This document shows positions 2,654 to 22,822 of a stretch of 26,867 nt of DNA, piece after piece. The DNA comes from a virus, in the IMG/VR virus record IMGVR_UViG_3300045996_001405, positions 1 through 26,867 of that record, one strand, 5' to 3'. Position 1 is the stretch's first letter. Each line of letters starts with the position of its first letter. The notes below the pieces were generated by a model. The model saw only the letters and a list, made by a program, of their open reading frames with translations, was not told where the DNA came from and made no database searches. The position numbers and the translations under genes were made by a program.

Positions 2654-3598
2654 TCAGGCGGCGTTGATGCCGGAGACCCAGCAGGCGGCCAGGGGCTGGT
2701 CGATCCCCAGGACGCGCTTGCGGGTGGTGTCGGTCCGCCACGACTCGGTCGGGCCACCGTTGGGGCCGCCGCCCTCGCCGTACAGGCCGGTGGACTCCAG
2801 CGGGCGGGTGTCGGACCGGAACCCGACGATGCCGCGCTGCAGCACCAGCGCCCGGTCGTTCGGCCAGAACCGCGTCAGCAGCGGGTTCAGGCCGAGCACC
2901 TGGCCGGGCATGGTGCCGCGGAACTGCAGCGCCTCACCCTCCGGGGTCTGGTTGTAGACGGCGAGGAACTCCGCGTTGTCCTGCAGGACGGCCTTGATGC
3001 TGTTCGGCAGGATGATGGTGTCCGGCTCGAAGCCCAGGTACTCCTCGGTGGAGACCTCGGCCGCCGGCTTCGCGGTGTTGACCTTCTCGATGGCGTTGGC
3101 GATGTCCCGCCGCACCTTGGACGTGCCGCCGGCCCACGACGCCGTGGCGGCGACGGTGGGGATCGACGTGGACGCCAGCAGCAGCGCCCGCAGCACCCGC
3201 TCCTCGGAGCGGATCATGGTGTTGACCAGCTGCCGGATCTGCAGGTTGACCTTGTCGATCTGGTTCTCGTCGCGCATCTCGCGGGAGACCCGGACACCGA
3301 GGCCGCGCTTCACGCCGACAGCGACGCGGGCGATGCCGCGCTGCCCGACGGCGATCGGGATCTCGCCGTACTCGGCGACGTCCTCGACGTCACCGGCGAG
3401 GAACAGCGGGGTGTTCTCCTCGAAGCCCACCAGGCCGTTGGAGTTGCCGCCGGCGTTCCGGAAGATCGCGTCGGTGAGGAAGCTGTTGTCCAGCAGCTGG
3501 ATGATCCGCGCGGGGATCATCAGCGGGTTGCCGACGAGGTCGGCGACGGTGGTGCGGGAGCCGTCCGAGACGCTCCCGACCGTGGTCACGGTAGCCAT
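2654..3598 (-). CDS. Major capsid protein (HK97 fold)
   Basis: 314 aa, ATG at 3598. The sequence is typical of HK97-fold capsid proteins of actinobacterial siphophages: an N-terminal arm, an E-loop-like region around residues 55-85 (FEENTPLFLAGDVEDVAEYGEIP), a long spine helix (RDENQIDKVNLQIRQLVNTMIRSEERVLRALL), the phrase FEPDTIILPNSIKAVLQDN in the peripheral domain, and a strand-rich C-terminus containing RALVLQRGIVGFRSDTRPL. It lies next to the protease and decoration genes. There is no long delta domain, which fits scaffolding being carried by the protease gene. Self-assembles into the icosahedral head. Confidence 0.9.
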   Translation of the reverse strand: MATVTTVGSVSDGSRTTVADLVGNPLMIPARIIQLLDNSFLTDAIFRNAGGNSNGLVGFEENTPLFLAGDVEDVAEYGEIPIAVGQRGIARVAVGVKRGLGVRVSREMRDENQIDKVNLQIRQLVNTMIRSEERVLRALLLASTSIPTVAATASWAGGTSKVRRDIANAIEKVNTAKPAAEVSTEEYLGFEPDTIILPNSIKAVLQDNAEFLAVYNQTPEGEALQFRGTMPGQVLGLNPLLTRFWPNDRALVLQRGIVGFRSDTRPLESTGLYGEGGGPNGGPTESWRTDTTRKRVLGIDQPLAACWVSGINAA

Positions 3599-3636
3599 TC
3601 CTGTGTCTCGCTCTCAGTCAGTAGGGGTCGGGGCCG

Positions 3637-5547: not shown

Positions 5548-5651
5548 CACTCGTCCGGGCCGCGGCCGGCCTTGATGAACTTCCCGACGAAGATGCCCGC
5601 CGGGATCATCACCACCAGCCAGATGGTGAGCGCGACCGCCCACATCGGCAT
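5547..5651 (-). CDS. Tiny single-helix membrane protein
   Basis: 34 aa, MPMWAVALTIWLVVMIPAG then FVGKFIKAGRGPDE. The ATG at 5651 overlaps the portal stop (TGATG) and the stop overlaps the next start the same way, so it is held in a chain of coupled genes. That strict coupling is the main reason to accept so short a frame. Residues 4-24 form one transmembrane helix, with a short basic end. With the following 59-aa gene it forms a pair of membrane peptides inserted between portal and protease. Confidence 0.6.
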   Translation of the reverse strand: MPMWAVALTIWLVVMIPAGIFVGKFIKAGRGPDE

Positions 5652-7009
5652 CAGTCGGCGCCCGCGGGTGCGGCGTTGTCGGCCTCCGGCCCGGTCGCGG
5701 GGCGCTCGGGGACCGGTGGGCCGGCGGCACCCGCCGGGGTGGTGGCGTTCGGCAGCGGCGCCTTCGGCGGCAGACCCACCAGCTGGCGCACGAACGCGTC
5801 CAGCGCCGGGTCGGGGAAGATCGCACCCGAGGTGATGAGCATCTGCAGCGCCTGCACCACGGCGCCGGCGTTCTGCCCGATCGGGTCGAACACGATCACC
5901 GGCGCGGGCTCGTCCTCCCCGAAGTTGACGTCGACCAGGTCCTCCACGACGTGCTGCGTGGCGGTGTCCGCGATCAGCTGCGCGAGGCTCTGCAGGCTCA
6001 TGATGAAGAAATCGATGAACGATGCGCCCAGGGCGTAGGAGCCGGTGCCGGTCTGCTGGCCGAGGTTCAGGAAGTGCGCCAGGACGCTCTTGGTGATCGC
6101 CTCGTCGTGGTAGCGGGCCGCCGCCTCGATGTCCGGCAGCATGCCCTGCACACCCAGCAGTTCCATCTTCGACCCGAACGGCCCGGCGCCGCCAGCCGCC
6201 GCACCCGACCGGTAGGACTGCGCCAGCACGCGGCCGTCGTCGAGGGTGTCCTCCTCCTCGCCCGCGGTGTAGTGCGGCACGCCCATGCTGTTGCGCTCGT
6301 CGCGCTCGTCCCAGCGGCGCAGGGAACGGTCCTTCAGCAGCCAATGCTTGTACGCGGAGCGGAGCAGCGACTGCCCCAGCCACGTGCCGCGGCGCTTGTA
6401 GACGTAGGCCACCAGCGACTCGACGGGGATGGTGATCGGCTCGTTGTCCGACGCGCGCACCACCCCGGGGGCGATCCACGGAAGCTGGATGATGCCCTCC
6501 AACCCGCCGTCGCGGGCCGTCTTCACCTCCTGCACCGTCTTCGGCCAGCGCGGCGCCAGCTTCCGCAGGTGGAACTTCCCGGTCGCGGTGTCGTAGCGGT
6601 ACACCTGCTCGAAGAACATGTGACCGAACACGACGCACTCGAGCGCCCATTCCACGTGCTGCGTCCAGGAGAACCGGTCCCGCTCCCGGGTGGCGCGCGG
6701 CGGGGCCTCCGACTTGCCCTTGATCGGCAGGCCGAGGTTCTCCGCGACGAACGTCACCACCTCATCGGAGGCGTCCGCGGGGTCCAGGCGCCAGGTGGCC
6801 TGCTGCACGGGCAGCTGCACCGCGGCCAACGCGGACAGCACCTGTGGGTCCTGGCGCTGCATGCGGTCGTAGATGACGTTCGACTGCGGCCACTGCAGCT
6901 CCGGGGTCTCCTCGTCACCCCACATGGCCCACCACTGCGACGGCTGGCCGTGGCCGATCTCGGCCGACTGCGGGCGGCGTGCCGTTCGCAGCCTGCGGGG
7001 CTCAGACAT
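5651..7009 (-). CDS. Portal protein
   Basis: 452 aa; ATG at 7009 with GGGAG 9 nt upstream. It has features of actinophage (DUF935-like) portals: YDRMQRQDPQVLSALAAVQLPV, which is the usual start of the clip/wing domain, then HVEWALECVVFGHMFFEQVY, and the RGTWLGQSLLRSAYKHWLLKDRSLRRWDERDERNSMGVP block of the stem. The C-terminal 60 residues are Pro/Ala-rich. Twelve subunits form the ring at one head vertex through which TerL pumps DNA. Length is usual for the family, and it follows TerL by 12 bp. Confidence 0.9.
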   Translation of the reverse strand: MSEPRRLRTARRPQSAEIGHGQPSQWWAMWGDEETPELQWPQSNVIYDRMQRQDPQVLSALAAVQLPVQQATWRLDPADASDEVVTFVAENLGLPIKGKSEAPPRATRERDRFSWTQHVEWALECVVFGHMFFEQVYRYDTATGKFHLRKLAPRWPKTVQEVKTARDGGLEGIIQLPWIAPGVVRASDNEPITIPVESLVAYVYKRRGTWLGQSLLRSAYKHWLLKDRSLRRWDERDERNSMGVPHYTAGEEEDTLDDGRVLAQSYRSGAAAGGAGPFGSKMELLGVQGMLPDIEAAARYHDEAITKSVLAHFLNLGQQTGTGSYALGASFIDFFIMSLQSLAQLIADTATQHVVEDLVDVNFGEDEPAPVIVFDPIGQNAGAVVQALQMLITSGAIFPDPALDAFVRQLVGLPPKAPLPNATTPAGAAGPPVPERPATGPEADNAAPAGAD

Positions 7010-7021
7010 GCACGCTTCTCC

Positions 7022-8716
7022 CTAGAATCCGACGCCGGTGAGCGCGCCAGCGCTACCGGGGCCCCAGTCTGCCGCACGCGGCGGCGCAGGCACCGCTGCC
7101 GGGGCCAGTGAGCCCCCCGGCGTCTTCCGCTTGCCGAACGCGACGTGCAGGTTCAACCCCAGCCCTGCCAATGCGGCACCGACCAGCGGGCTGATGTCCC
7201 CCGAGCCCTCCGTGGTGAACCCCCGCGTCGACTTCGACTTGCCGATGAACCGCCAGCGGGCCACCTCGATCGCCCGGTTCAGCGGCTCATCCACACCCGT
7301 GGGCACGTACTTGCCGGCCTCGAAGTCGTCGACGATCGCCTGGCACGCCTGCCCCATCTCCGCGGGCCCGGTGAGGATCGGATCCAGCCCCGCCGCCTGC
7401 AGCTTCGGCACCAGCGCGCCGGCCGGGCCGCCCGAGTCGATGACCAGCACCGCCGGGGAGAACAGCTCGGAGATCTTCAGCAGTCGCGGGATCACCCACT
7501 CGGTGCCCTCCTGATGGAAGACGGTCTGCGCACCCCACGTGCCGTCGTCGTGCCAGCCGGCGGCCACCAGCGACGTGTGCAGGCTGCCCGGCGCGCGGTG
7601 AATGCCGAGCACCACCGGATCCGACAGCTGCTGCACCCCGATCGCGCGGGAGTGGAACACCTCCGGGTCGAACGGGATGTCCTCGCCCTCGTCCAGGTCC
7701 GGATCGGGCCAGAAATCGGGTGCGCACAGGTCCTCGACGAGGAACTTCCGCACGCCCATGCCGTTGCGGTCGTCGCCGATCGTCTCCAGCTCCAGCAGCA
7801 CCCGGCCGTCGGCGATGCGGCGCCCCAGGGAGGGGTTGGCCATCGCCCAAAAGAACGGATCGTCCAACCGTTCGTCGATCTTGTTCACGAAGCGGCCCGT
7901 CTCCGGGTCCATCTCCCGCCCCGGCACCGACCACTCCAGCCAGCACATGCGGTCCCCGCCGGCCAGCGCCTTCTTACGCATGCTGGCCAGCTCGAGGCCG
8001 TTGGGCATCGTGTCCCCGTCCACCGGGGTGGACACGAACAGCACCTGCGGCGACGGAGACGTCTTAATCATCGGGCGCAGCGCGGCCAGCTCGGCGTCGG
8101 TCAGGTCGTACGCCTCGTCGCAGATCAGCAGGTCACCGAACAGACCACGACCCGCGTTGTCCGACCGGGTGAAGAACAAGATCTCCCGGCCGTCGCGCAG
8201 CACGATCCGCTCATCACCCTTACCCGACCGGATGCCCCGCTCACCGCCCCGGACCTCCGCCAACAGCTTCGGGGACGCCTTGATGACGTCCGCCATGCGC
8301 TTGAACGCGTCCGTCGACGTCCGCTGCAGCTGCGCGGTATGGAAGATGCGCCGCGCCTTCAGGATGTACAGGTGATACAGCTCGATGATGAGGAGGACGT
8401 CGCCCTTACCGTTCTGGCGGGCCACGATCAGGCCCACGTTGGCCGCGGCCCACTTCCAGCGGCCGCCGTGCACCGTGTCGTAGGGGTCCTCGACGTACCG
8501 CTCGCCCATCGCGTCGACGACGGCGTTCTCCTGCCACGTCATCACCGCGCGGCCGGTCATCTTCCGGAAGAACGCCACCGCCGCATGCCCCGCGCAGCGG
8601 TCCTTTTTCACCGTCGACGTGCCGCAGGGAACGCACTTCGCCTCGTTCGGCGGCAACACCCGCAGGCGAGGCTCCTCGTGGCCGAGGATCGGCTCCGGAA
8701 CGGCCACCGCGGTCAC
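7022..8716 (-). CDS. terL: Terminase large subunit
   Basis: 564 aa from the GTG at 8716, which overlaps the TerS stop (GTGA); the open frame extends upstream without support. Residues 99-105 (ARQNGKG) are the Walker A variant used by phage terminases, and LLICDEAYDL (about 196-205) is Walker B plus catalytic Glu. The coupling motif region reads QVLFVSTPVDG. The C-terminal nuclease part includes VLVIDSGGPAGALVPKLQ, with the first acidic metal ligand. An unusual pair of CxxC-like cysteines near residues 28-41 (CVPCG, then DRC) may bind zinc. It cuts and packages DNA through the portal. Confidence 0.92.
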   Translation of the reverse strand: MTAVAVPEPILGHEEPRLRVLPPNEAKCVPCGTSTVKKDRCAGHAAVAFFRKMTGRAVMTWQENAVVDAMGERYVEDPYDTVHGGRWKWAAANVGLIVARQNGKGDVLLIIELYHLYILKARRIFHTAQLQRTSTDAFKRMADVIKASPKLLAEVRGGERGIRSGKGDERIVLRDGREILFFTRSDNAGRGLFGDLLICDEAYDLTDAELAALRPMIKTSPSPQVLFVSTPVDGDTMPNGLELASMRKKALAGGDRMCWLEWSVPGREMDPETGRFVNKIDERLDDPFFWAMANPSLGRRIADGRVLLELETIGDDRNGMGVRKFLVEDLCAPDFWPDPDLDEGEDIPFDPEVFHSRAIGVQQLSDPVVLGIHRAPGSLHTSLVAAGWHDDGTWGAQTVFHQEGTEWVIPRLLKISELFSPAVLVIDSGGPAGALVPKLQAAGLDPILTGPAEMGQACQAIVDDFEAGKYVPTGVDEPLNRAIEVARWRFIGKSKSTRGFTTEGSGDISPLVGAALAGLGLNLHVAFGKRKTPGGSLAPAAVPAPPRAADWGPGSAGALTGVGF

Positions 8717-9057
8717 GGCACGGCCCGCGGCGGCGGCCGGCGACGCGCCCGCTCCGCCTCGAAGTCGCTGATCTCCTCCTCGCGGTCCTCCTCCATCGCG
8801 TTGGCCTCGATCGCGGCGCGCGCATCGACCATCGCTACGGCAAGCTGGCGGTCCAGCGGCGGTAGATAGGCGGCGTTCTGCGTGGTGTCCATCGTCTCGG
8901 CCAGCGCACACGCCCGCTCAGCGGCCGTCCGCAGCTGCCCCGGGGGCGTCAGCGGCGTCCAACCCAACGCCTCGAGCTCCGCGCGCACCGCCGTCTCCAG
9001 CGGGCCGATCGGGAGCTCTTCGATGTTGTGGACGCGCTGCCATCGGCGGTACGTCAC
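8713..9057 (-). CDS. terS: Terminase small subunit
   Basis: 114 aa from the GTG at 9057 (VTYRRWQRVHNIEELP); this start overlaps the stop of the preceding tiny gene (GTGA) and has GGGAG about 10 nt upstream. A GTG at 9066 would add three residues but leaves almost no spacing. The protein is small and helical (GPLETAVRAELEALGW; QLRTAAERACALAETMD; RQLAVAMVDARAAIEANAMEED) with a basic end. Its size and position directly before TerL fit TerS, which recognises the packaging site. No clear HTH could be confirmed by eye, so the call relies partly on context. Confidence 0.75.
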   Translation of the reverse strand: MTYRRWQRVHNIEELPIGPLETAVRAELEALGWTPLTPPGQLRTAAERACALAETMDTTQNAAYLPPLDRQLAVAMVDARAAIEANAMEEDREEEISDFEAERARRRPPPRAVP

Positions 9058-9584: not shown

Positions 9585-10361
9585 TCAACCGATGGAACGG
9601 TACCCCGACACCTTGCCCGCGTAGTCGATGCTCGTGACCTTCAGGCCGCTCTTCGCGTTCAACGCCTGCACCACCTGACCGTCACCGATGTACATCGCCA
9701 CGTGGCTCACCGGCGAGAAGTACACCACCAGGTCACCCGGCTTCAGCGCGTCCCGAGTCGTCGCCACGCCAGCACCAGCCTGCGCCTTCGACGTCCGCGG
9801 AATGCTCACCCCGGCGTTCTTCCACGCAGCCTGCGTCAGGCTCGAGCAGTCCCATGAGCTCGTGCCGTTCGCCCCATACACGTACCGGTCGCCCTCGCGC
9901 TGCTGCTGCAGCGCGTACGCCACCGCCGTCGCACCCTTCCCCGAACCCACCGACGGCGCCGGAGCGGGAGCGGGAGCCGGAGCGGACGACGCGGACGGGT
10001 CCGGACGGTCAGCGCGCGACGTGTGCCCCTGCTCGGCCGCCGGAGCGGACACCGAACCGGACAGCTTCAGCACCTGCCCCGGGTAGATCACGAACGGCGA
10101 CTTCACGCCGTTGAGCTCCGCCAGCGTGTCCCAGCGCATGCCCTGCGCCTTCGCGATCTTCGCGATCGTGTCGCCGGCCTTCACCTTGTACGCGCCCTGC
10201 GCCTGCTCGGCCGGAGCCGGAGCGGGCGCCGGCTGCGCAGCCGGAGGCGGCCCAGCGGGCGTGGAGACGTGCGCCGATGCCGTCCCAGCGGTGAACAGCG
10301 GCAGCAGTAGGGCAGTGCCCACCGCGCCCGCCGTGATGGTGTTGCGAACCGCCGAGTGCAT
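9585..10361 (-). CDS. Secreted LysM-NlpC/P60 peptidoglycan hydrolase (probable endolysin)
   Basis: 258 aa; ATG at 10361 with GGGAGGG about 9 nt upstream. Residues 1-30 are a Sec signal peptide with an ASA cleavage site near 28-30. A Pro/Ala linker leads to a LysM domain (58-101: YKVKAGDTIAKIAKAQG to YPGQVLKL), a second linker, and an NlpC/P60 domain (about 142-258) with catalytic Cys172 in WDCSSLTQ and His220 in SHVAMYIGDG. Such enzymes cut stem-peptide bonds in the wall. A holin-like gene lies just upstream, so this is the likely lysis enzyme, exported by the host rather than through the holin alone. A wall-remodelling role in DNA transfer is the alternative. Confidence 0.85.
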   Translation of the reverse strand: MHSAVRNTITAGAVGTALLLPLFTAGTASAHVSTPAGPPPAAQPAPAPAPAEQAQGAYKVKAGDTIAKIAKAQGMRWDTLAELNGVKSPFVIYPGQVLKLSGSVSAPAAEQGHTSRADRPDPSASSAPAPAPAPAPSVGSGKGATAVAYALQQQREGDRYVYGANGTSSWDCSSLTQAAWKNAGVSIPRTSKAQAGAGVATTRDALKPGDLVVYFSPVSHVAMYIGDGQVVQALNAKSGLKVTSIDYAGKVSGYRSIG

Positions 10362-10413: not shown

Positions 10414-10640
10414 GTAAGCGACCGTCACCGTAAGCACCGACTCGCGGTGATGTACGACCCATCACGCATGCACGCACTAGGGCCCGAAGGCTCAGCACTA
10501 GTTGCCAGTTACCCGCCGGTACCAAGCCCCCTACGCCGGCGTGTCGAGACCATGTCGTGACATACGCCGCGGACCACGGCCTCGCAACGGCGTGTTGCAG
10601 CCCGCACCCGAACCGCAGAAATTTCTCGCCCGGACAACGC
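10414..10640. other. Non-coding interval with repeats, between holin-like and lysin genes
   Basis: No convincing gene on either strand. The interval has GTGATG-N7-CATCAC (10447-10465) and the direct repeat GCACTAG at 10474 and 10495, spaced exactly 21 bp, two helical turns. It separates two lysis genes that would usually be adjacent, so regulatory content is plausible. Nothing more specific is visible. Confidence 0.35.
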
Positions 10641-10808
10641 TCAGAGCGCCCCCGGCGTCAACGCCACCGCCACCACGATCCCGGCCGCGAACAGCGCCGC
10701 GCACACCATCAGCCAGTCACCCGAACGCGCCGGCCGCGCACCAACCTGCGCCCACAACCCAGCCAGCAGCGCAGCGACGAGGAAGCCTACGAACACGCTC
10801 GACGCCAC
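10641..10808 (-). CDS. Holin-like two-helix membrane protein
   Basis: 55 aa from the GTG at 10808, which has an AGAGGAGA ribosome site 7-8 nt upstream; the open frame extends to 10898 but that start has no such site. Two hydrophobic helices (VASSVFVGFLVAALLAGLW; then WLMVCAALFAAGIVVAVAL) are separated by a short basic loop (GARPARSGD). This is the size and shape of a small class II type holin. The lysin gene is the next gene downstream. Holins have little conserved sequence, so the call rests on topology and position. Confidence 0.6.
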   Translation of the reverse strand: MASSVFVGFLVAALLAGLWAQVGARPARSGDWLMVCAALFAAGIVVAVALTPGAL

Positions 10809-10919
10809 GCTCGCTCTCCTCTCGCGCACACGCGATGGCCCGCCAGCCCGCTGAGCCGCCCGCTGCCGCCCGAACTTCGCTCGCCCGTGGCCCAGCACCA
10901 GATCGTGCTCACGGGCCCG

Positions 10920-10992
10920 GGGGGAAACTCCTGACTGTGCGGCGCGGGGGTCGGGCGGGTGCCCCCCTCAGATTTTCGGACGGGGGGGCCTT
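10920..10992. other. GC-tract intergenic region, candidate packaging (cos) site
   Basis: Between the HNH gene (ends 10994) and the holin-like gene lies a run of G and C tracts: a GGGGG-N11-CCCCC hairpin (about 10946-10966), an internal CAGATTTTC, then seven Gs. Many HNH-type cos phages carry such tracts between the HNH gene and the small terminase gene, though the lysis genes intervene here. Alternatively the hairpin followed by a T-rich stretch is a terminator. Confidence 0.35.
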
Positions 10993-10993
10993 G

Positions 10994-11356
10994 TCAGCTG
11001 AGCGTTCCGGTCCAGTCGCGATCCCACCATGCTGGGATCGCTGTCTCACGTGTGCCGTCGCCTCGTGAGCGGTTGCACGTTGCGAGCATGAGGCGATCTG
11101 CCTTCATGCCACCTTGGCTTCGTGCTTGTGAGTGGTCAGCGTCGAGCGGCAAACCGTCTGGGTTGAGGTGTGCGCTCCTGTACATGGGTAAGGCCTGCCC
11201 CGCCTTGCGGCATAGACACGCTGGTCCACAGTCTCGCCCAACTCCACATGGACAGAGTGTTCCATCGATGTGCTTAGCTATTAACCTTCGTCTGTTCTTC
11301 TGATGTTCCCAACCAAGATTGCGTTCTGTTGTTGTCTTCCTGTTTGTACTTGGCAT
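10994..11356 (-). CDS. HNH endonuclease
   Basis: 120 aa; ATG at 11356 with AAGGA 7 nt upstream. Cysteines at 35, 37, 43, 47 and 49 probably bind zinc. The HNH core is LDADHSQARSQGG (His75 in the ADH step) followed by LATCNRSRGDG (Asn95), as in HNH proteins encoded near terminases, which assist DNA cleavage at packaging. The 5' half uses A/T-ending codons unlike the rest of the window and the gene adjoins an AT-rich stretch, so it may have been acquired separately. A homing-type nuclease is the alternative. Confidence 0.85.
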   Translation of the reverse strand: MPSTNRKTTTERNLGWEHQKNRRRLIAKHIDGTLCPCGVGRDCGPACLCRKAGQALPMYRSAHLNPDGLPLDADHSQARSQGGMKADRLMLATCNRSRGDGTRETAIPAWWDRDWTGTLS

Positions 11357-11560
11357 TGTTCATTCCTTAGTTCATAACATCACATCATCATGTATGTATT
11401 ACTAACTAACTAATAACATATCTATCTTCGTGAAGCACATACGATATGTGTACATGAACAAGGCTTACCTTCACACATACCATGCTTACTGTTAGTACAT
11501 GAACTACATACATCACCATGCTTCTCATACATGTGTATGCGCATAGCCCTACGTGTGATA
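11270..11560. other. AT-rich island
   Basis: By eye this is the only extended AT-rich stretch in the window. It covers the 5' part of the HNH gene, a short intergenic region with tandem ACTA/TAAC repeats (about 11398-11416), and a Cys-rich gene using A/T-ending codons. Candidate explanations are recent acquisition, a melting or origin-like element, or a strong promoter region for the HNH gene. Confidence 0.6.
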
Positions 11561-11565
11561 GCCAC
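11422..11565 (-). CDS. Small Cys/His-rich probable zinc protein
   Basis: 47 aa from the GTG at 11565 (a GGGGGG run lies 6 nt upstream) or 40 aa from the ATG at 11544. The core is MYEKHGDVCSSCTNSKHGMC followed by EGKPCSCTHIVC, with seven cysteines and three histidines, arranged C-x2-C-x7-C-x4-C-x-C. Short proteins with 'VCSSC...C.G.PC.C' occur in actinobacterial plasmids and phages, of unknown function. Codon use is AT-rich. The frame is open further upstream and includes a CPCCGW motif, but that would read through the hairpin at 11591-11638. Confidence 0.55.
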   Translation of the reverse strand: MAITRRAMRIHMYEKHGDVCSSCTNSKHGMCEGKPCSCTHIVCASRR

Positions 11566-11590
11566 TGGTACCCCCCATGCGTAGGACACC

Positions 11591-11638
11591 CACCCACAGC
11601 AGGGACAGGTACGGGCCCTGTGTCCCCTACTGCGGGTG
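11591..11638. terminator. Imperfect hairpin after the 11643-12360 unit
   Basis: CACCCACAGCAGGGACAG (11591-11608) pairs with CTGTGTCCCCTACTGCGGGTG (11618-11638), with two mismatches or bulges and a short loop. It lies 5 bp past the stop of the minus-strand gene ending at 11643, as expected for a terminator of that unit. Confidence 0.55.
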
Positions 11639-11642
11639 AGTG

Positions 11643-11864
11643 TCAGCGACGGTGCCTCTTGCCCAGGTCCCGAGAGGCGATCTGTATCGCAGCTGCGATG
11701 AGCGCTGTGCCCACGAAGATCCCTGGTCCGATGAACCACCAGCGTCCGCCTAGCCATAGCCCCAGGATGAGGCCGATGACCAGGCCGATGGCTCCGAGGT
11801 AGCGGAGGTAGGTGACGGCTACCGGCTCGGGGGCCGGCGTAGGTACCCCCGGATCGGAGGTCAC
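11643..11864 (-). CDS. Small membrane protein, two helices
   Basis: 73 aa starting at a GTG (11864) in a GTGA overlap with the previous gene. After a Pro-rich N-terminus (SDPGVPTPAPEPVAVTY) come two hydrophobic helices, roughly 22-41 (LGAIGLVIGLILGLWLGG) and 43-63 (WWFIGPGIFVGTALIAAAIQI), and a basic end (SRDLGKRHRR). It is the last gene of a three-gene unit. Topology would fit a holin or a transfer-related spread protein; no family was recognised. Confidence 0.65.
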   Translation of the reverse strand: MTSDPGVPTPAPEPVAVTYLRYLGAIGLVIGLILGLWLGGRWWFIGPGIFVGTALIAAAIQIASRDLGKRHRR

Positions 11865-12058
11865 TTCAGCGCCTCGTCGAGGCGGGCACGTAGCCAGTGG
11901 CCGTCGGGTGGTTCGCCGTTGCTTTCATCGATGTCCCAGCCGAGTGCTTCGGCGAGGGCCATGGCTGCGTTGCCGAGTTCGGACCATGGGTGGTCGGAGG
12001 CGCCTTCGTGGAGGGCGTCGATGGATGCGATGAGTAGGGCTCGGTCGATGAATCTCAT
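11861..12058 (-). CDS. Hypothetical 65-aa protein
   Basis: Starts MRFIDRALLIASIDALHEGA at an ATG (12058) in an ATGA overlap with the previous gene. Mostly helical and acidic, ending GHWLRARLDEALK, with tryptophans at several positions. Both neighbours are coupled by start/stop overlaps, which supports a real gene. No family recognised. Confidence 0.6.
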   Translation of the reverse strand: MRFIDRALLIASIDALHEGASDHPWSELGNAAMALAEALGWDIDESNGEPPDGHWLRARLDEALK

Positions 12059-12395: not shown

Positions 12396-12563
12396 GAGGT
12401 GGCAGTGGCAGGCGCAGGTGACCTGCTCGCCCATGCAGTACGAGCACACGTGCAGTGCTCCTCCTCCGCGTGAGCGGATGACGACGGTGTCGAGCGGCTG
12501 ACCGCCCTCGCAGCCGGGGCATTCCTGGCAGCGAGGGCAGTCAGCTTCGTCGTGGTCGGTCAC
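12393..12563 (-). CDS. Small zinc-ribbon protein
   Basis: 56 aa from a GTG (12563) in a GTGA overlap with the upstream gene. Cysteines come in C-x2-C-x2-C-x2-C (CPRCQECPGC, residues 9-18), then CSYC (40-43), and CACHCH (50-55), enough for two zinc sites. It ends at a TAG that forms part of the operator palindrome. The pattern suggests a structural zinc-ribbon, possibly contacting nucleic acid or protein. No named family. Confidence 0.65.
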   Translation of the reverse strand: MTDHDEADCPRCQECPGCEGGQPLDTVVIRSRGGGALHVCSYCMGEQVTCACHCHL

Positions 12564-13375
12564 TCGTTGCTCGAGGCCTCGGTGGTGGGTTCGGGTGCGC
12601 TGGTGGTCTGCGCCGGGGCTTCGGTGGTGACCTCGTCCTCGGTGTCGGCAGTGGACTCGGCGGTGCGCTGGATGTCCTCACCGGTGGTGGGCTCGGCCTC
12701 TTCGGTGACCTCGGGCTCGGGCGTGGTGGTGGGCTCGGTGCCTTCGTCGTCGCGGTCGGGCGTGGTGGTGGTCACGGGCTCGTCCTCCTCCTGCTCGTCC
12801 TCGGGCACGGTGGTGGCCGGGGAGTTGTCGGTGACGGTGCCGAGTGTGGTGGATCGGCTCGTTTCTGTGTTGCCCACGAGCGATGCGACGGGTTTCTGCG
12901 TGAGGAGCTCGATGCCGGTGATGACGGCCATGACGAGGATGAACATGCCGACGGCGGCGAGGGCGACGCGGATCCAGAACTTGCGGTTGAGCTGGATGTC
13001 GAACCGCTTGCTCTTGCGGGGGTCGAGGTGCTTGGGCAGCTGGTTGATGGCCTCGCGGGTGGCGGGGGGCAGGGCTCCCATGGCTCGGGTGGCGTCGCGT
13101 CCGGGGACGGCGGTGGCGCCGGCTGGTGTGCCGAGTGGGATGACCTTGGTGACCTTGGTGGCGCCGCGCTTGAGGCTGTGCGTGTAGAGGGCAGCGGCGA
13201 CGGTGCTGATGACGGATCCGACGGCTGCTCCCCAGAGGGTGCCGGCGGTGCCGAGTGAGGATGCGGCCACGGTGCTGGTGACGGAGGCGAGTGCGCCTCC
13301 TGCGGTGGCGGCCGGTGAGAGGCCGAGACCTTTGGTCTCTTCCTCGGTGGGCTTGGGCTTGGTGGCGGCGGTCAT
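12560..13375 (-). CDS. Membrane protein with long Thr/Glu/Pro-rich exposed tail
   Basis: 271 aa, ATG at 13375 in an ATGA overlap. Residues 25-64 are small-residue-rich and hydrophobic (AGGALASVTSTVAASSLGTAG; WGAAVGSVISTVAAALY), a glycine-zipper-like membrane region. A basic cytoplasmic stretch follows (KHLDPRKSKRFDIQLNRKF), then a clear helix at 136-158 (IRVALAAVGMFILVMAVITG). Residues 165-271 are a low-complexity Thr/Glu/Pro/Ser tail, probably outside the membrane and possibly glycosylated. It lies in the unit with the TraSA-like translocase and is coupled to another membrane protein. A role in surface interaction, exclusion or transfer is inference. Confidence 0.7.
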   Translation of the reverse strand: MTAATKPKPTEEETKGLGLSPAATAGGALASVTSTVAASSLGTAGTLWGAAVGSVISTVAAALYTHSLKRGATKVTKVIPLGTPAGATAVPGRDATRAMGALPPATREAINQLPKHLDPRKSKRFDIQLNRKFWIRVALAAVGMFILVMAVITGIELLTQKPVASLVGNTETSRSTTLGTVTDNSPATTVPEDEQEEDEPVTTTTPDRDDEGTEPTTTPEPEVTEEAEPTTGEDIQRTAESTADTEDEVTTEAPAQTTSAPEPTTEASSNE

Positions 13376-14079
13376 TCGTCGTCCTCGGGGTGTCGGTGGC
13401 GACCGCCGATGTGGGTGAGGTCGAGGCGGGTGGCCCCGGCCAGTTGGACGGTGGCGGGTGGGTCGAAGCCGGGGTGGGTGGGGTTGAGCAGCTGTTCGGG
13501 GGTGGGTGTGTCGTCGGGGTCGCGGAAGGCGGGGACGGTCTGCCCGTCGACGATCTCGATCTTGTGGTCGGGGTCGAGGACGTAGGCCCAGCTGTCGGTA
13601 TGGATGGGGCCGATGTAGCCGGGGGTGCCGGGGGCGTCCGGGCGTCGGGTGGGGATCTCGTTGGTGTGCGGGATGGCGACGTCGAGTCCGTTGGCGCTGG
13701 GGACGGTGGTGACGACGTGCACCTCGGTGGCTGCGGCTGGCTGGTGGGTGAGCTTGTCGGGGTCGGTGGGGATGCCGACGGTCGCCTTGAGGGACTCCAC
13801 AGCCTCGTCAGTGCGCGCCACAGCCGTTCGGGTGGTCGGGATGTCCCGGACGTTGTTCAAGGCCGGCAGCGGGGCGCTCAGAGGCCTGGCGGGCATGCCT
13901 CGCTCCCCCTTGATGGCGTCCAGGGTGGCGTAGACGTCGTCCAGGGCCCTGTTGATCTCCTCCCGGCTGCCCTTGAACGAGCGGTGCACGCCGTAGGCGC
14001 AGCCGAGCAGGGTGAACATGGCGACCCAGAAAGCGAGGCTGGTGACCCACCGCGGGATCTCGGTGAGGAACTCAGCCAT
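13372..14079 (-). CDS. Membrane-anchored protein of unknown function
   Basis: 235 aa from the ATG at 14079, overlapping the LuxR-type gene by 8 bp. One N-terminal helix (residues 10-30: WVTSLAFWVAMFTLLGCAYGV) anchors it, followed by a basic stretch and a helical segment (SREEINRALDDVYATLDAIKG) that could be a coiled coil, and then a polar Pro-rich domain with YVLDPDHKIEIVDGQTVPAF. The end is His/Asp-rich (RHRHPEDDE). Coupled to the mucin-like membrane protein, with which it may form a complex. No family recognised. Confidence 0.65.
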   Translation of the reverse strand: MAEFLTEIPRWVTSLAFWVAMFTLLGCAYGVHRSFKGSREEINRALDDVYATLDAIKGERGMPARPLSAPLPALNNVRDIPTTRTAVARTDEAVESLKATVGIPTDPDKLTHQPAAATEVHVVTTVPSANGLDVAIPHTNEIPTRRPDAPGTPGYIGPIHTDSWAYVLDPDHKIEIVDGQTVPAFRDPDDTPTPEQLLNPTHPGFDPPATVQLAGATRLDLTHIGGRHRHPEDDE

Positions 14080-14569
14080 GGGACTCTTCCAAGTCGACGG
14101 GGCGGATCTTGCCGCTGGTGAGGGCGAGCACGAGGCTGATGCGGTCACGCAGCTCGGCCTTGTTGCAGATGGCGCGGATGTGCTTGCGGATCAGCTTGAC
14201 GCTGACGTCGAGCTCCCAGGCGATGTCGTCGTCGGCGGTGTCCTCGAGCAGCAGGGTCACGATGGACCGCTGCAGGGGGTTCATCGGGATGGGCCGGCCG
14301 CCGAGGACGGCGTGGTCTGGGCTGCCGGGCATGCCGGGGACGCGCCGCTTGTGCTTGTGCAGGACGTCGAGGACGTCCTGTTCGGTCCATGTGCCCTGGT
14401 AGCGGCCGAGGTCGACGATCTTCCCGTACGACCAGTGCGCGATGGTGAGCGTGAGGATCCGCTTCACCTGGACGGGGTCGAGCGCGCGGGTCTGGGTCTG
14501 TAGGGAAGTCACGGGAGTTGAGGGCACCACGTCGGGCGGTGGGGCGCTAGGGGAAGTGTTCACGATCAC
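14072..14569 (-). CDS. LuxR-type helix-turn-helix regulator
   Basis: 165 aa; start GTG at 14569, with a second in-frame GTG at 14563. Residues 97-152 match a GerE/LuxR-type DNA-binding domain: NPLQRSIVTLLLEDTADDDI, AWELDVSVKLIRKHIRAIC and NKAELRDRISLVLAL. This follows the usual pattern of E/Q-R-x-V-x-x-L-L, D-D-I-A, S-x-K-x-I-R-x-H-I-x-x-I, K-x-x-x-R-x-R. The N-terminal 95 residues have no receiver domain. It is the only obvious DNA-binding regulator in the window, followed by two membrane-protein genes in coupled order. It could be the protein that binds the TAGCGC palindromes, but that is not shown. Confidence 0.8.
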   Translation of the reverse strand: MIVNTSPSAPPPDVVPSTPVTSLQTQTRALDPVQVKRILTLTIAHWSYGKIVDLGRYQGTWTEQDVLDVLHKHKRRVPGMPGSPDHAVLGGRPIPMNPLQRSIVTLLLEDTADDDIAWELDVSVKLIRKHIRAICNKAELRDRISLVLALTSGKIRPVDLEESHG

Positions 14570-14739: not shown

Positions 14740-15125
14740 GCCATGGCCTCGATGACCTGTCCCCAGGTCCACTTCGTGGTGGGCCAGCCGTGGTACTCGG
14801 CGATGGGCTCGTAGCCCTCGATGTGCTCGAGGTGGATGAGCACGGTCCGAACGCCGCGTGCGTCGCACTCGAGGCAGAGGTCGCCGACTTCGTCGTCCCA
14901 GACGAGGTCGATGGCGTCGCAGCCGGGACAGGTGCTGGGCACCTTGTCGAGCCACGTCTGGGTGACGCGGCGGACGTTCTGGAACCCGCAGGTGCGGCAG
15001 CCGAAGGCGATGACCTGGAAGTCGCCGAGCTGGTCGGTGAGCTCGACGCCGGTGGCGTCCTGCTCTTCCATGCTGTGGGCGTGGTGGAACGGGTCGGGGC
15101 AGGTGGTGTGCGGGAGGTGCTGCAT
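14736..15125 (-). CDS. Triple zinc-ribbon protein
   Basis: 129 aa; ATG at 15125 overlaps the previous stop (TGATG). Three CxxC pairs: residues 43/46 (GCRTCG), 66/69 (TCPGCD) and 84/87 (LCLECD), plus His-rich N-terminus (HLPHTTCPDPFHHAH). The C-terminus is hydrophobic-aromatic (YHGWPTTKWTWGQVIEAM). This looks like a zinc-ribbon-based nucleic acid or protein binding protein; no specific family was recognised. Confidence 0.65.
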   Translation of the reverse strand: MQHLPHTTCPDPFHHAHSMEEQDATGVELTDQLGDFQVIAFGCRTCGFQNVRRVTQTWLDKVPSTCPGCDAIDLVWDDEVGDLCLECDARGVRTVLIHLEHIEGYEPIAEYHGWPTTKWTWGQVIEAMA

Positions 15126-15238
15126 CAGATGTCCTTCGGGGTGGTGAGGCGGGTGACTGGGTAGGTCGCGAGCCGGTAGACGGCGTCGAGGGCGTCGCCG
15201 ATGACGATGTCGAGGGTGTTGACGAGGCGTCGGATCAC
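15125..15238 (-). CDS. Tiny 37-aa protein coupled to the translocase
   Basis: VIRRLVNTLDIVIGDALDAV then YRLATYPVTRLTTPKDI. The GTG at 15238 is in a GTGA overlap with the translocase stop, and the stop is in a TGATG overlap with the next gene. An amphipathic helix is likely. The two overlaps are the main evidence; it may be a small partner of the translocase. Confidence 0.5.
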   Translation of the reverse strand: MIRRLVNTLDIVIGDALDAVYRLATYPVTRLTTPKDI

Positions 15239-16167
15239 GCGGCGGCCTCCTGGCTGAGTCGGTGGATGTCTTCGTCGGAGTGGTAGGCGAAGCGGATGCG
15301 GCGGGGGTGGCCCCCTTCGGTCATGAGGTAGGCGATGCCGGGGTGGGCGGCGGGGATGCGGTGGGTTTGGGCGCCGTTCTCCCGTGCTCCCATCCCCAAG
15401 ATCATGTCGGCCTGGTTGGCGTCGGCGGTGCGGAGTGCGATGCGCTGCCGGAACAGCGCTCGCATGCCGATGACCTCCACCCGGGCGTCCTGGGTGGCGC
15501 CGATCACGCAGAACCCCACGGCTCGGCCTTTGCGCAGCAGCGCCTGGATGGCGGTGTGACAGCGGCGCTTGAGTTCCCGGTCGGGTGAGTCGAGGAGGTC
15601 GGCGAGCTCGTCGATGAGGATCACGACCAGCGGTTCCCGGACGCCCAGGGTGGCTTCCTGGTCGGGGTCGCCGGGTTGCAGCTTGCGGATGCCGACGTCG
15701 GCGAGCCGCTCGGCGCGGTCGTTCATGTCGTCGACGGCCTGCTCGAGGATCTCGACGCCGTCTTCGGGCTTGTTGACGAGCACGTCGAACAGCTCGAAGC
15801 CGGGGGTGAGTTCCATGCCGCCTTTGGGGTCGATGGCGCGGATCTCCACCAGGCCGTCTCGGCGGGCCGGCTGGCAGCCGGCGACCAGGGCCCAGATGAC
15901 GCTTCCTTTGCCGCTGCCGGTGACGCCGGCGACCAGCAGGTGGTTGCCGAGCAGCGGGAGGGTGACCGGCCGCCAGTCTTCGTTCATGGCGACGGGGATG
16001 CGCCGCAGGTCGTCGGTGGGTGTGAAGGGGTGGACCGGGAAGGACAGGGGGTCGACCCAGTCGCTGATGGTGAAGTTGGTGCGGCTTCCCGCGCGGACGA
16101 CCTGCGCCATCACGGCGACGATGGCCGCGATGAGGGCGAGGAACGGCAGCCACGGGAAGTCGGGCAT
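15235..16167 (-). CDS. TraSA-like FtsK/SpoIIIE DNA translocase
   Basis: 310 aa, ATG at 16167 (TGATG overlap). Residues 5-24 form one membrane helix (PWLPFLALIAAIVAVMAQVV). The motor has Walker A GVTGSGKG at 81-88, the family signature IDPKGGMEL at 112-120, Walker B VVILIDELADLL around 181-192, and the later GRAVGFCVIGATQD and FRQRIALRT motifs. Size and sequence fit the FtsK-type transfer proteins (TraSA of pSAM2 type) of actinobacterial conjugative elements, which move double-stranded DNA between mycelial cells as hexamers. The C-terminal DNA-reading domain of chromosomal FtsK is absent. It is surrounded by small coupled genes, as tra/spd genes are. Finding it in a phage genome is notable. 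Confidence 0.85.
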   Translation of the reverse strand: MPDFPWLPFLALIAAIVAVMAQVVRAGSRTNFTISDWVDPLSFPVHPFTPTDDLRRIPVAMNEDWRPVTLPLLGNHLLVAGVTGSGKGSVIWALVAGCQPARRDGLVEIRAIDPKGGMELTPGFELFDVLVNKPEDGVEILEQAVDDMNDRAERLADVGIRKLQPGDPDQEATLGVREPLVVILIDELADLLDSPDRELKRRCHTAIQALLRKGRAVGFCVIGATQDARVEVIGMRALFRQRIALRTADANQADMILGMGARENGAQTHRIPAAHPGIAYLMTEGGHPRRIRFAYHSDEDIHRLSQEAAA

Positions 16168-16358
16168 CAGTCGGTGGGGTCGTCGGCGGCCTGCACGTCA
16201 CCGATGGCCTGGTCGAGCATCTCGAGGACGCTGGTGACGTTCTGGGCGGCTTCGGCGGCTGCGACGGAGAACGCGGCGAACAGGTCGCGGTTGTGCTTGA
16301 CGACGTCGGCGAGGGTGGCCGCGATGTCGCGGTAGGCCTCGGCGGAGAGCTCGGCCAT
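16167..16358 (-). CDS. Small helical protein upstream of the translocase
   Basis: 63 aa, MAELSAEAYRDIAATLADVV onwards. It is entirely helical with regular heptad-like spacing (LFAAFSVAAAEAAQNVTSVL EMLDQ) and an acidic end. Both ends are joined to neighbours by TGATG overlaps. It may form a coiled-coil partner; no family recognised. It resembles the next gene in size and composition, so the two may pair. Confidence 0.6.
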   Translation of the reverse strand: MAELSAEAYRDIAATLADVVKHNRDLFAAFSVAAAEAAQNVTSVLEMLDQAIGDVQAADDPTD

Positions 16359-17081: not shown

Positions 17082-17111
17082 ACTATGCCATAGCACCTAG
17101 CGCTAGCGCTA
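17082..17111 (-). promoter_or_regulatory. Promoter with perfect TAGCGC palindrome, translocase unit
   Basis: TAGCGC-TA-GCGCTA (17098-17111) is a perfect palindrome. The outer TAGCGC (17111-17106) is 18 bp from CATAGT (17087-17082), which lies in a second small dyad, CTATGCCATAG (17083-17093). The site includes the TAG stop of the helicase gene, as the site at 12382 does for its upstream gene. It should drive 17075 to at least 12393. Confidence 0.55.
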
Positions 17112-18431
17112 CCCCTGGTCCTTGAGTGCCTGTTCGCAGGCTTCCATCAGTGCGAACTTGTCCGCCTGGTCCTCCCAGTCGGCACGCCAGAACGGCCGGG
17201 CGCCGCGCTGCCCCTCGCGAATCAGCTGATCGGGCCAACCGGGGCGTCCCTCCTCACGGTCGTTGCGGAAGCGCTCGAGCTCGAACACGTTCCCCTCGTG
17301 CTCGTCGACCGCACGCAGGCCGAGGCCGAACTCCGACCAGCGCAGCCACAGGCTCGAGCCGTAGGGGTCCAGTCCACGCTTGCCGCTGGTGTCCTTGCTC
17401 TTGCCAGCGTGGTGCTCCAGGAACAGCGCTAGCCCGTAGGTGGCGGCGATCTTCTGCAGTGCCTGCTGGATTCCGGTAGCGACGTCCTCCCAGCTGTCAG
17501 TCGAGCGCTTGTCGGTCATCCGGTACACGGGCCCGGCGCACAAGAGGTCTGGTTGGTGGGTCTCGATGAGCGAGCACAGCCCGGCGTAGCCGGCTTCGGT
17601 GCGCACGTCGAGAGTGCCGCCGGGGTCGCGGGCGACCATCGCGCGCCCCTCGAGCATCAGCCCGTCCTCCTCGAGCATGGGCGCGACGAGGCGCTTGAGG
17701 CCGCGGCGCAGGAGGTCCGGCGGGTTCTCGCTGTCGAGTAGCAGGGTGCGCTTGGGCGGGATCCGCAGCTTCGGTGCGAACGGGTGCCGGCCGGCGGCGA
17801 CCATGGCGGCGATCTGTCGCGCCAGCGTCGACTTGCCGGAGCCTTCGAATGCGGTCAGCACGACGCGTTCCTGCACGGCCAGGGTGCCGGGGATGACCCA
17901 CTGGTACGGCGGGACGTCCTCGTCGATGAAGTCCTCGAATGAGGACATCGGGACGACGGGGGCGGTGCTGCGCTTCCCCCCGTCGATGATCTCGGCCAGT
18001 AGCGCGTACTGGTCGGCGACGACGTCCAGCGCCCCGTCGGTGTCGGCCATCGTGGTGACGGCCTGCAGCATGCGGTTCGCGACCTCGGCGGTACGGCGAC
18101 GCATGGTGGCGCCCTGCAGCTGCTCGACGTGCCAGCCGAGCTGCAGTGGCAGGCAGGCGTAGGTGGTGAGCTCGTGCAGGTAGGGACCTGCGTTGGGGAC
18201 GCGGCCGACGTCGTCGGCAACGAGCAGCTCGTGCAGCACCTGTGACTCGCTGGGGGTGCCGTGTTTGGTCACGGCCCGCTGCAGCGCTCGCAAGATCAGG
18301 CCGTGCTGAGTGCTGAAGTCGCTCATGCCGAGGTCGACGGTGCGCAGGGCGTCGGGGTGTGTCAGCAGGCACCCAAGGACGGTTTGCTCGACGGGCTTGT
18401 CGTAGCCGCCTTCGCTGAGTCCGGTGGCCAT
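17109..18431 (-). CDS. Replicative helicase-like ATPase (DnaB N-domain plus RepA-type core)
   Basis: 440 aa from the ATG at 18431 (MATGLSEGGYDKPVEQTVLG), TGATG-coupled to the replisome organizer. Residues 10-150 resemble the DnaB N-terminal domain (EQTVLGCLLTHPDALRTV; then TTYACLPLQLGWHVEQL). The RecA-like core has Walker A TAFEGSGKST at 193-202, RTLLLDSENP (about 228-237) as the acidic strand, and FLEHHAGKSKD as the sensor-type histidine motif of RepA/RSF1010-type helicases. Together with the organizer it should unwind DNA at the element's origin. A RepA-type core joined to a DnaB-type N-domain is common in actinophages. Confidence 0.8.
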   Translation of the reverse strand: MATGLSEGGYDKPVEQTVLGCLLTHPDALRTVDLGMSDFSTQHGLILRALQRAVTKHGTPSESQVLHELLVADDVGRVPNAGPYLHELTTYACLPLQLGWHVEQLQGATMRRRTAEVANRMLQAVTTMADTDGALDVVADQYALLAEIIDGGKRSTAPVVPMSSFEDFIDEDVPPYQWVIPGTLAVQERVVLTAFEGSGKSTLARQIAAMVAAGRHPFAPKLRIPPKRTLLLDSENPPDLLRRGLKRLVAPMLEEDGLMLEGRAMVARDPGGTLDVRTEAGYAGLCSLIETHQPDLLCAGPVYRMTDKRSTDSWEDVATGIQQALQKIAATYGLALFLEHHAGKSKDTSGKRGLDPYGSSLWLRWSEFGLGLRAVDEHEGNVFELERFRNDREEGRPGWPDQLIREGQRGARPFWRADWEDQADKFALMEACEQALKDQG

Positions 18432-19252
18432 CAGAACCCGCCGGAGGGGATCGGGCGGCCGCCGGCCGTCTTGCGGGGGCGCGGGGTGCCGTTCATGCCG
18501 GCGTGCCCGTTGCTGGCCTGCAGGCGCAGCTTGTCGTACTGCTTGCGGAACGTCGGCATCGACAGGATGTTGCGTCCCCAGAACTCGTCGGCCTGGCACC
18601 AGTCGATGAGTCGGTGAGCTTCGGCGAGGTCGCGGCCATCTCGATCGAGCAACAGGCGGGCGCTGTCGCACCAGTCGCGGGTGATCTTGGCCTTGACACC
18701 CTTCGCGGTGACGAGGCGGAGCAGGTGCTCGCAGAGCTCGTCGACGTCCGGCCGCGGAGCGGGCGGGGAGGGTTCTTCTCTTTCTATGTCTCTCTCTCCG
18801 TCTCCGTCTACGTCTAGGATCGGGGTACCGATTCCCCCCCCGATCGGGGGGCGATCGCCTCCCGATGCGTTTTCGGACACGCAGAACTCGCAGTCAGGGT
18901 CGAACTTGCCTGCCTTGACGTGCCAGCGGCGGTGGTTGCCGACCTTCCCACCTGCAGAGATGGCCTCTTCGCTTGAGTTCCAGCGCTCCCATGATCGGAT
19001 CCGCCAGCCGTCCTCGACGACCTCCCAGAGACCGTGTGTGACGAGCGATTCGGCCAGCTTTGTGCACGAACGCAGCCCGATGCCGACAGCATCGACGTCC
19101 CAACGTGACACGAATCCGCATGATCTTGTTCTCTTCGACCACACAAGCGACCGGACGAAGAGCAGCTCGGCCATCGGGCCGGCCTTCCGGATGGCCACGT
19201 CGAGGTCGTAGTTCACGTGCAGCGGGACGAACTGTCCGGGGATCTTCGCCAT
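18431..19252 (-). CDS. Replisome organizer / replication initiator (lambda O-like)
   Basis: 273 aa; ATG at 19252. Residues 1-95 form a winged-helix-like domain (FVRSLVWSKRTRSCGFVSRW; LAESLVTHGLWEVVEDGWRI). A zinc-binding segment follows, GNHRRWHVKAG to DCEFC (His107, His111, Cys121, Cys124). Residues 130-170 are a disordered linker, and 170-247 is a helical loader domain ending FWGRNILSMPTFRKQYDKLR, typical of phage initiators that bring the helicase to the origin. The helicase gene follows directly. The DNA of the linker is unusual and may be the origin itself. Confidence 0.8.
   Translation of the reverse strand: MAKIPGQFVPLHVNYDLDVAIRKAGPMAELLFVRSLVWSKRTRSCGFVSRWDVDAVGIGLRSCTKLAESLVTHGLWEVVEDGWRIRSWERWNSSEEAISAGGKVGNHRRWHVKAGKFDPDCEFCVSENASGGDRPPIGGGIGTPILDVDGDGERDIEREEPSPPAPRPDVDELCEHLLRLVTAKGVKAKITRDWCDSARLLLDRDGRDLAEAHRLIDWCQADEFWGRNILSMPTFRKQYDKLRLQASNGHAGMNGTPRPRKTAGGRPIPSGGF
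18775..18860. other. Candidate replication origin inside the initiator gene
   Basis: The stretch has a pyrimidine-rich run with tandem 6-mers (CGTCTC, CGTCTA, CGTCTA), then repeated CGATC cores, including ATCGGGGTACCGAT and the perfect 16-bp palindrome CCCCCCGATCGGGGGG (18836-18851). It falls on the linker between DNA-binding and loader domains, as the lambda origin does in gene O. Confidence 0.45.
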
Positions 19253-20689: not shown

Positions 20690-21181
20690 TCATCCGGTAT
20701 ATGCCGGCCAGCCGACGCGGAGCATGTACTGGCTGAGGGTCCGACCACGATCACCCTCGACGTAGAAGTCGGCGAGCAACCGTCCCAGGTTGCCCTCATA
20801 GGACCAGGTCTCGGCCCGAATTCCCTGCTCAGAGTACATGTCGAGCCATCGGGCCACATCCTCGCCGCCCTGCGCCCAGGTGCCCGCGCGGCCGTCCGGC
20901 AGCGGCGCGCCAAGCTGCTTTCCCTTCTCCGGCGTGTTGACGTACAGGAGCCGGCAGGAGGCGCCCCGGGGGTACACCAGCGGGTCCAGGGTGATGCGCG
21001 TCCACTCGGTGAGCACGACGCCGTTGACGGCGACCGGCAGCTGGTTGCCCTCGACCCAGCCCTCCAGGTGCGCGCGGATGGTGTCGCCGTCGATGACGGA
21101 GTGGCTGAGCACAGACCAGTCGTCCCCGGTCGCATAGGGCGCGCCGGGGACGAGCTGGGCTAACGAGAGGCCGATGATCAC
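20690..21181 (-). CDS. SNase-like nuclease
   Basis: 163 aa from GTG at 21181 (GTGA overlap). Motifs follow staphylococcal nuclease: VIDGDT at 29-34, RLLYVNTPEKG at 77-87, and a GRLLADFYVEG segment at 133-143. Aligned by motif, Arg77, Glu85 and Arg134 correspond to catalytic Arg35, Glu43 and Arg87, and Asp33 to Asp21. The Asp40 equivalent is Asn82, a calcium ligand change that could lower or alter activity. No signal peptide is evident, so it probably acts inside the cell. Role in the element is unknown; phage DNA or host DNA processing is possible. Confidence 0.75.
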   Translation of the reverse strand: MIIGLSLAQLVPGAPYATGDDWSVLSHSVIDGDTIRAHLEGWVEGNQLPVAVNGVVLTEWTRITLDPLVYPRGASCRLLYVNTPEKGKQLGAPLPDGRAGTWAQGGEDVARWLDMYSEQGIRAETWSYEGNLGRLLADFYVEGDRGRTLSQYMLRVGWPAYTG

Positions 21182-21816: not shown

Positions 21817-22000
21817 GGTCGTTCTCCTCGTGCCAGTCGATGTGCGTCTGCTGCGGGCTGGTCTCGATGGGCGTGAGGTCCCGCACCTTGGGGACGAGCA
21901 CACCGCAGGTGGGGCAGGCCCACCCGACGCACGTGCCGTTGAAATGGAGCTCCCGGCCGTCGAAGTCGCTCTCAGCGATCCGTGATGACACCGAACTCAC
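21809..22000 (-). CDS. C2H2-type small zinc protein
   Basis: 63 aa from the GTG at 22000 (60 aa from the GTG at 21991). It contains CPTCG (Cys29, Cys32) and HIDWH (His53, His57), a C-x2-C-x20-H-x3-H pattern, plus Cys24. The start overlaps the papain-like gene by 29 bp. The motif is convincing for one zinc site; DNA binding is possible but not shown. Confidence 0.55.
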   Translation of the reverse strand: MSSVSSRIAESDFDGRELHFNGTCVGWACPTCGVLVPKVRDLTPIETSPQQTHIDWHEENDRG

Positions 22001-22766: not shown

Positions 22767-22822
22767 TGCCTCATGCCTTCCTGTCGGGCCTCTAGCCATT
22801 CGAGGTACTCGCGGTCGGTCAC
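22763..22822 (-). CDS. Possible 19-aa peptide
   Basis: VTDREYLEWLEARQEGMRQ, from a GTG at 22822, with GTGA overlaps at both ends. It is amphipathic and helical. Its only support is the double overlap; it may couple translation between neighbours rather than act as a protein. Confidence 0.35.
   Translation of the reverse strand: MTDREYLEWLEARQEGMRQ

Follow-up and report, generated by a model that had tools for sequence, protein, structure and literature searches.

A compact FtsK/SpoIIIE-type translocase related to AICE transfer proteins in a lineage of tailed actinophages

Introduction

AICEs are defined by three parts, Int, Rep and Tra (PMC3218068). TraB hexamers move dsDNA, including AICE dsDNA, across mycelial membranes and, together with Spd proteins, within the mycelium (PMC12857230, PMC4170104), and a single Tra/TraB protein has been described as the sole requirement for dsDNA transfer (PMC3218068, PMC12857230). 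The Spd proteins of different plasmids often have no shared sequence similarity (PMC4170104). The conjugative TraB proteins of the Streptomyces plasmids pIJ101 and pFP11 are also FtsK-type dsDNA translocases, with a far larger N-terminus than the protein described here and 108-125 residues after the motor, the expected place of a clt-reading domain.

FtsK-like genes are already known in phages. The Omegavirus FtsK/SpoIIIE-like proteins (e.g. Mycobacterium phage Ariel gp205) contain an FtsK motor followed by approximately 100 residues, and are near to cellular FtsK (NCBIfam PRK10263, 372 bits). In Streptomyces phage Gilgamesh, which has a tyrosine integrase, the 637-aa gp10 is annotated as an FtsK-like DNA translocase and adjoins the membrane protein gp9 (MN234216). 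A prior report of an AICE-type Tra in phages was not found in the open-access literature searched, coverage of which was partial, and the compact AICE-clade form of translocase described below appears to be new. We identified this form in a 26.9-kb linear IMG/VR record carrying high-GC actinobacterial phage genes, analysed at its full length and referred to here as the window.

Sequence and predicted structure of the translocase

The translocase gene (ftsK) lies on the minus strand of the window (16167..15235) and encodes 310 aa from an ATG start, with a GC content by codon position (0.73/0.45/0.92) that is gene-like. The protein matched the Pfam family FtsK_SpoIIIE (PF01580) with an E-value of 1e-14, well past the cut-off, while the NCBIfam models for plasmid TraB, EccC and FtsK matched it more weakly, all far under their own cut-offs. 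The Walker A (GVTGSGKGS, residues 81-89) and Walker B (VVILIDE, residues 181-187) motifs were intact, as was the DPKGGMEL segment at residues 113-120. In an alignment of 40 relatives the key residues of these three motifs were invariant or nearly so, and 17 alignment columns were invariant.

The AlphaFold2 model had a mean pLDDT of 92.9 and consisted of a single helix (residues 6-28, a predicted membrane helix), a linker, and a motor at approximately residues 54-305. Only five residues follow the motor, and the C-terminal gamma/wHTH domain is absent. The top PDB fold matches to the model were FtsK motor domains (2ius and 6t8x, TM approximately 0.7), followed by the conjugation coupling protein TcpA and EccC. 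These results confirmed the initial annotation of this region, which had read from the sequence a 310-aa protein with an N-terminal membrane helix, Walker A and B motifs and an IDPKGGMEL segment.

The short N-terminus is genuine, as the reading frame in the window closes 10 codons 5' of the ATG. It is further supported by the overlap of the ATG with the stop codon of a 63-aa gene directly upstream (16167..16358, minus strand; junction TGATG), a partial homologue of which occupies the same place in the related contig G001 described below. From the junction sequence, the two genes are likely to be translationally coupled.

Relationship to AICE transfer proteins

We searched for cellular relatives of the translocase in 84,980 species genomes and kept the best 80. 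All 80 were Tra-type genes (40-48% identical), and 77 of them had an AICE-type rep and/or int within 10 kb; homologues of the terL, portal or major capsid protein (MCP) genes of the window were near the Tra gene in none of the 80. No match to the translocase among 50,697 phage records reached 60% identity, and the annotated actinophage FtsKs came no closer than approximately 30%.

The closest named system was the Tra protein of pMR2, an AICE of Micromonospora rosaria (NC_006910), together with the pMR2/pSAM2-type clade to which it belongs (PMC3218068). Motor identity ranged from 39% (pMR2) to 48%, and the phage and AICE proteins share the segments GKGSV.W, DPKGGMEL, IDE.A, GRAVG and ATQD.R.EV. 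Both end shortly after the motor and lack a gamma domain, with few residues there compared with the 100-125 of TraB and FtsK. However, AICE Tra proteins have approximately 200 extra N-terminal residues, usually with one to three membrane segments, where the phage protein has one helix; approximately 53 residues precede the motor in the phage translocase, against a median of approximately 250 (counted on the open frame) in the 80 AICE relatives. The settings also differ, as AICE Tra genes adjoin rep, xis or int and the phage gene has phage neighbours.

We built trees from AICE Tra, plasmid TraB, chromosomal FtsK and known phage FtsK proteins together with the translocases of the window and two related phage contigs, G001 and G005; in these comparisons other AICE Tra proteins stood in for the TraSA of pSAM2 (AJ005260). 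The three phage translocases formed one clade with support of 91/90, and of 100/98 in a second set, and this clade joined AICE Tra with support of 82/83. When the outgroup included very long branches (pIJ101, p4M), as in the first tree, the three phage proteins did not form one clade, but they grouped once the longest rows were removed. The branching between the phage clade and AICE Tra was weakly supported, being sister in one tree and nested in another. Plasmid TraB was distant in the tree, and Gilgamesh gp10, for all the similarity of its setting beside a membrane protein, formed a long branch outside the AICE-Tra clade.

The initial annotation had called the protein AICE-type and had set against this assignment a clustering with a known phage-only FtsK-like clade. 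AU tests rejected grouping of the translocase with all sampled known phage FtsKs (p=0.0003), with Omegavirus FtsK (p approximately 1e-70; these proteins are approximately 30% identical to the translocase) and with chromosomal FtsK (p approximately 1e-44). Relatives, trees and AU tests thus bore out the original assignment, and support placing the translocase, by sequence, with the pMR2/pSAM2-type AICE Tra family.

Conservation of the translocase in related phage contigs

Contigs related to the window, which like it are linear fragments, carry the gene in the same place. G001, a 59-kb phage contig, encodes a copy of the translocase that is 84% identical, and homologues of the window head genes at 82-93% identity. 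G005, an 18-kb contig from another sample, encodes a compact 311-aa translocase that is 46% identical, and here ftsK sits between a homologue of the window helicase and homologues of the LuxR-like, membrane-protein, HNH, terS, terL, portal and MCP genes. All three contigs that cover the region (window, G001 and G005) contain ftsK in the same gene order, always with the replication module on one side and the lysis/head genes on the other; L153, a fourth close contig, ends short of the gene.

These contigs have the hallmarks of tailed phages (Caudoviricetes). TerL, portal and MCP are encoded in the window and its relatives, and G001 encodes a 1477-aa tape-measure-like gene. The strand that carries ftsK also carries terS, terL, portal, an S49-like protease, a decoration protein and MCP, so that the head-gene set reported on this strand by the first reading is real. 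The terminase large subunit (7022..8722, minus strand) has copies that are 91% (G001) and 64% (G005) identical, and is approximately 30% identical to known actinophage terminases. The portal protein (5651..7009, minus strand) has copies that are 93% and 65% identical in the same two contigs. The MCP (2654..3598, minus strand) is 50-56% identical to those of Rhodococcus phage Mbo4 (56%), Mycobacterium phage phiT46-1 and Gordonia phage Malibo, phages that differ from that of the window in having no close match to the translocase. Megablast against phage records detected no DNA similarity to the window, and a terL query of 98 genomes sampled across an order returned a single, distant match (34%).

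Comparison of the window with G001 gave dN/dS values of 0.33 for the translocase, 0.32 for MCP and 0.20 for terL; the 63-aa gene, which aligned poorly, was left out. The value for the translocase indicates that selection acts on the protein and points to purifying selection. We considered whether the gene could be an accidental recent AICE insertion, or an assembly chimera, beside phage genes, as its relatives are AICE genes. This is almost certainly not the case: one phage gene order recurs in three contigs, which derive from two or more samples and have translocases of 84% and 46% identity, the gene appears to be under purifying selection, and no further AICE gene adjoins it. The conserved place in related contigs and the dN/dS of 0.33 together argue that the translocase, judged on its sequence, is a resident phage gene and not part of a chimera.

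Search for other AICE functions

Of the defining parts of an AICE, the phages encode an FtsK/SpoIIIE-type Tra protein (PF01580, in a clade with AICE Tra). No tyrosine integrase (PF00589) was found in the window, the 59 kb of G001 or G005, linear fragments outside which an integrase could lie, and no serine recombinase (PF07508) was found in these possibly incomplete records. The replication initiator of an AICE is RepSA, RepAM or Prim-Pol; no homologue of the rep of pMR2 or M. avium (RepSA-type) was detected in the three phages, which instead have phage-type genes for replication (a DnaD-like loader, an AAA_25 helicase and a Toprim primase). Likewise, the three phages showed no Spd similarity to pMR2, pIJ101 or pFP11, and Pfam gave no match for Spd. 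Searches for relatives of the Spd, RepSA, Xis and Int of pMR2, pIJ101 and M. avium did not rise above background, and there was no match for ParA. In a scan for clt round ftsK in the window and G001, clustered 8-mers scored no higher than in dinucleotide shuffles, which was also true of the controls pIJ101, pFP11 and pMR2, so that the scan lacked the power to detect clt. A repeat search including TRF detected only weak, diverged repeats within coding sequence and no clt-like array.

Two membrane proteins are encoded downstream of ftsK. Membrane protein 1 (13372..14148, minus strand) is kept in G001 and has a weak homologue in G005; it had no match in a Pfam search, and its true start is probably internal, at MAEFLTEIPRWV..., overlapping the LuxR-like gene. 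Membrane protein 2 (12560..13375, minus strand; 271 aa) has an 80% identical copy in G001, a hydrophobic N-terminal half and a Pro/Thr/Glu-rich tail, and no match among known phages. Since Spd sequences are not conserved between plasmids (PMC4170104), these two proteins could, by analogy, be functional Spd counterparts.

Possible roles of the translocase

The translocase is probably a minimal membrane-anchored dsDNA pump that shares a common ancestor with pMR2/pSAM2-type AICE Tra and is now resident in a tailed actinophage lineage. Because no other recognisable AICE gene was found in the window, G001 or G005, the phages have probably re-used the pump for DNA handling inside the cell and are not conjugative hybrids. 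The role that we favour lies within the cell, where the pump would move or segregate dsDNA at membranes or septa. The protein would form a hexamer anchored in the inner membrane of the host and would pump dsDNA during the intracellular stage of infection. Its substrate would most likely be phage replicative DNA, or alternatively host chromosome trapped at the septum, and at membranes and cross-walls its action may keep phage DNA in motion or segregated. Packaging would be left to the terminase, and as the phage encodes its own, the translocase is unlikely to package DNA.

A related proposal is that the translocase, like cellular FtsK, works at the division site, on the host chromosome or on phage multimers. 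The fold is nearest the FtsK motor and the gene adjoins the replication module; however, the five residues after the motor leave no gamma/wHTH domain for sequence-directed loading, and the protein falls outside the cellular FtsK clade, making this proposal rather unlikely. Its AICE Tra relatives move dsDNA across the mycelial membranes of Streptomyces (PMC12857230, PMC4170104), and with a predicted membrane anchor, adjoining membrane proteins and the high-GC actinobacterial character of the phage genes, the pump could instead drive replicating phage DNA through the cross-walls of a host mycelium without virions, in the manner of Tra/Spd intramycelial spread. This we regard as unlikely: the closest head genes come from phages of Rhodococcus, Gordonia and Mycobacterium, hosts that are not all filamentous. 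Somewhat less likely still is an extended form, in which an AICE-derived pump and the adjoining membrane proteins drive phage DNA, as it replicates, across cross-walls or points of cell contact and so infect neighbours without virions. If true, such a phage would move by two routes, and of the alternatives, virion-free spread from one hyphal compartment to the next is the most interesting.

True conjugation ranks lower. The initial annotation had raised a hybrid element able to move as a virion and perhaps capable of FtsK-type conjugation as well. On such a reading the phage, or a prophage or plasmid form of it, would also pass from cell to cell as dsDNA through the TraSA-like pump, in the AICE manner. 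The grouping of the motor with AICE Tra proteins, the predicted membrane anchor, the membrane proteins encoded just downstream and the description of a lone Tra/TraB protein as the sole requirement for moving dsDNA (PMC3218068, PMC12857230) are consistent with this. However, the search of the flanks for integrase and spd that had been proposed found no homologue in the window, G001 or G005, RepSA, serine recombinase and ParA were likewise not found, and the translocase lacks the extended N-terminus of AICE Tra. Nor was clt detected, in a scan where control plasmids also scored like shuffles. We therefore consider the conjugative reading very unlikely. The other option offered at the outset, reuse of a translocase in the handling of phage DNA, fits the finding of three phages with one conserved gene order.

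AICE-type Tra genes in other phages

A second, unrelated phage group carries full-length AICE-type Tra genes (L015, L019 and L021, with fragments in L017, L018 and L022). In L019 (1282-18048) the Tra gene lies inside the head cluster, between the portal/protease and major head protein genes, and the MCP shares 36-44% identity with its counterparts in Arthrobacter phage Atuin and in the Gordonia phages Sixama and GodonK. Because this unrelated group carries full-length genes, AICE-clade Tra genes, as assigned by sequence, are not confined to a single actinophage lineage. AICE-type transfer ATPases thus also live as resident actinophage genes, in a minimal one-helix form and a full-length form, blurring the boundary between conjugative elements and phages. 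With them, the idea that viruses encode dsDNA transport through bacterial membranes or septa becomes testable.

A further contig (L016, G008; 34.4 kb) is prophage-like, with portal, TerL and tail genes, and its right end encodes a 494-aa AICE-type Tra beside an integrase. This arrangement reflects either a hybrid or a prophage with the remnant of an AICE next to it.

Other genes of the window

A micro-ORF of 37 codons with a GTG start (15125..15238, minus strand) overlaps the ftsK stop. It shares 28 of its 37 residues with a 38-codon micro-ORF with an ATG start in G001 (20991-21107, plus strand), the overlap being GTGA in the window and ATGA in G001; it is not present in G005. Further downstream, a LuxR/GerE-like HTH protein (14072..14569, minus strand) with a weak Pfam GerE match has homologues in G001 and G005, and is thus kept in all three phages, with no match among known phages.

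Upstream of ftsK, the replication module ends with a replicative helicase (17109..18671, minus strand) that has a DnaB-N-like region and an AAA_25 domain by Pfam and matches the PHROG DnaB-like helicase; its G005 homologue is immediately upstream of ftsK. PHROG matches identify the gene at 18431..19252 (minus strand) as a replication initiator or DnaD-like helicase loader of phage type, not RepSA. The module differs between the phages at one place with its flanks kept (window 17109-19252, minus strand; L004:16381-18776, plus strand). In the window it comprises the DnaD-like loader and the DnaB-N/AAA_25 helicase, and in G001 another initiator and a Toprim/AAA_25 primase-helicase.

Between the lysis/head and early genes, at 10500-12000, GC drops to 57% and GC skew switches sign, which may mark a regulatory or replication boundary. 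A lysin with LysM and NlpC/P60 domains and a signal-peptide-like N-terminus is encoded at 9585-10361 (minus strand). Two genes of G001 (3445-4920 and 42694-45897; L004 and L006) both have a GH46 chitosanase-type domain and are 69% identical to each other over approximately 260 residues; one lies within a 1067-aa tail-region protein. A 275-aa protein of the window (21972-22799, minus strand) contains a papain-like LLNSWG segment; the window copy had no Pfam match, and the best PHROG assignment of its homologue in G001 was to a peptidase family (1.6e-7).
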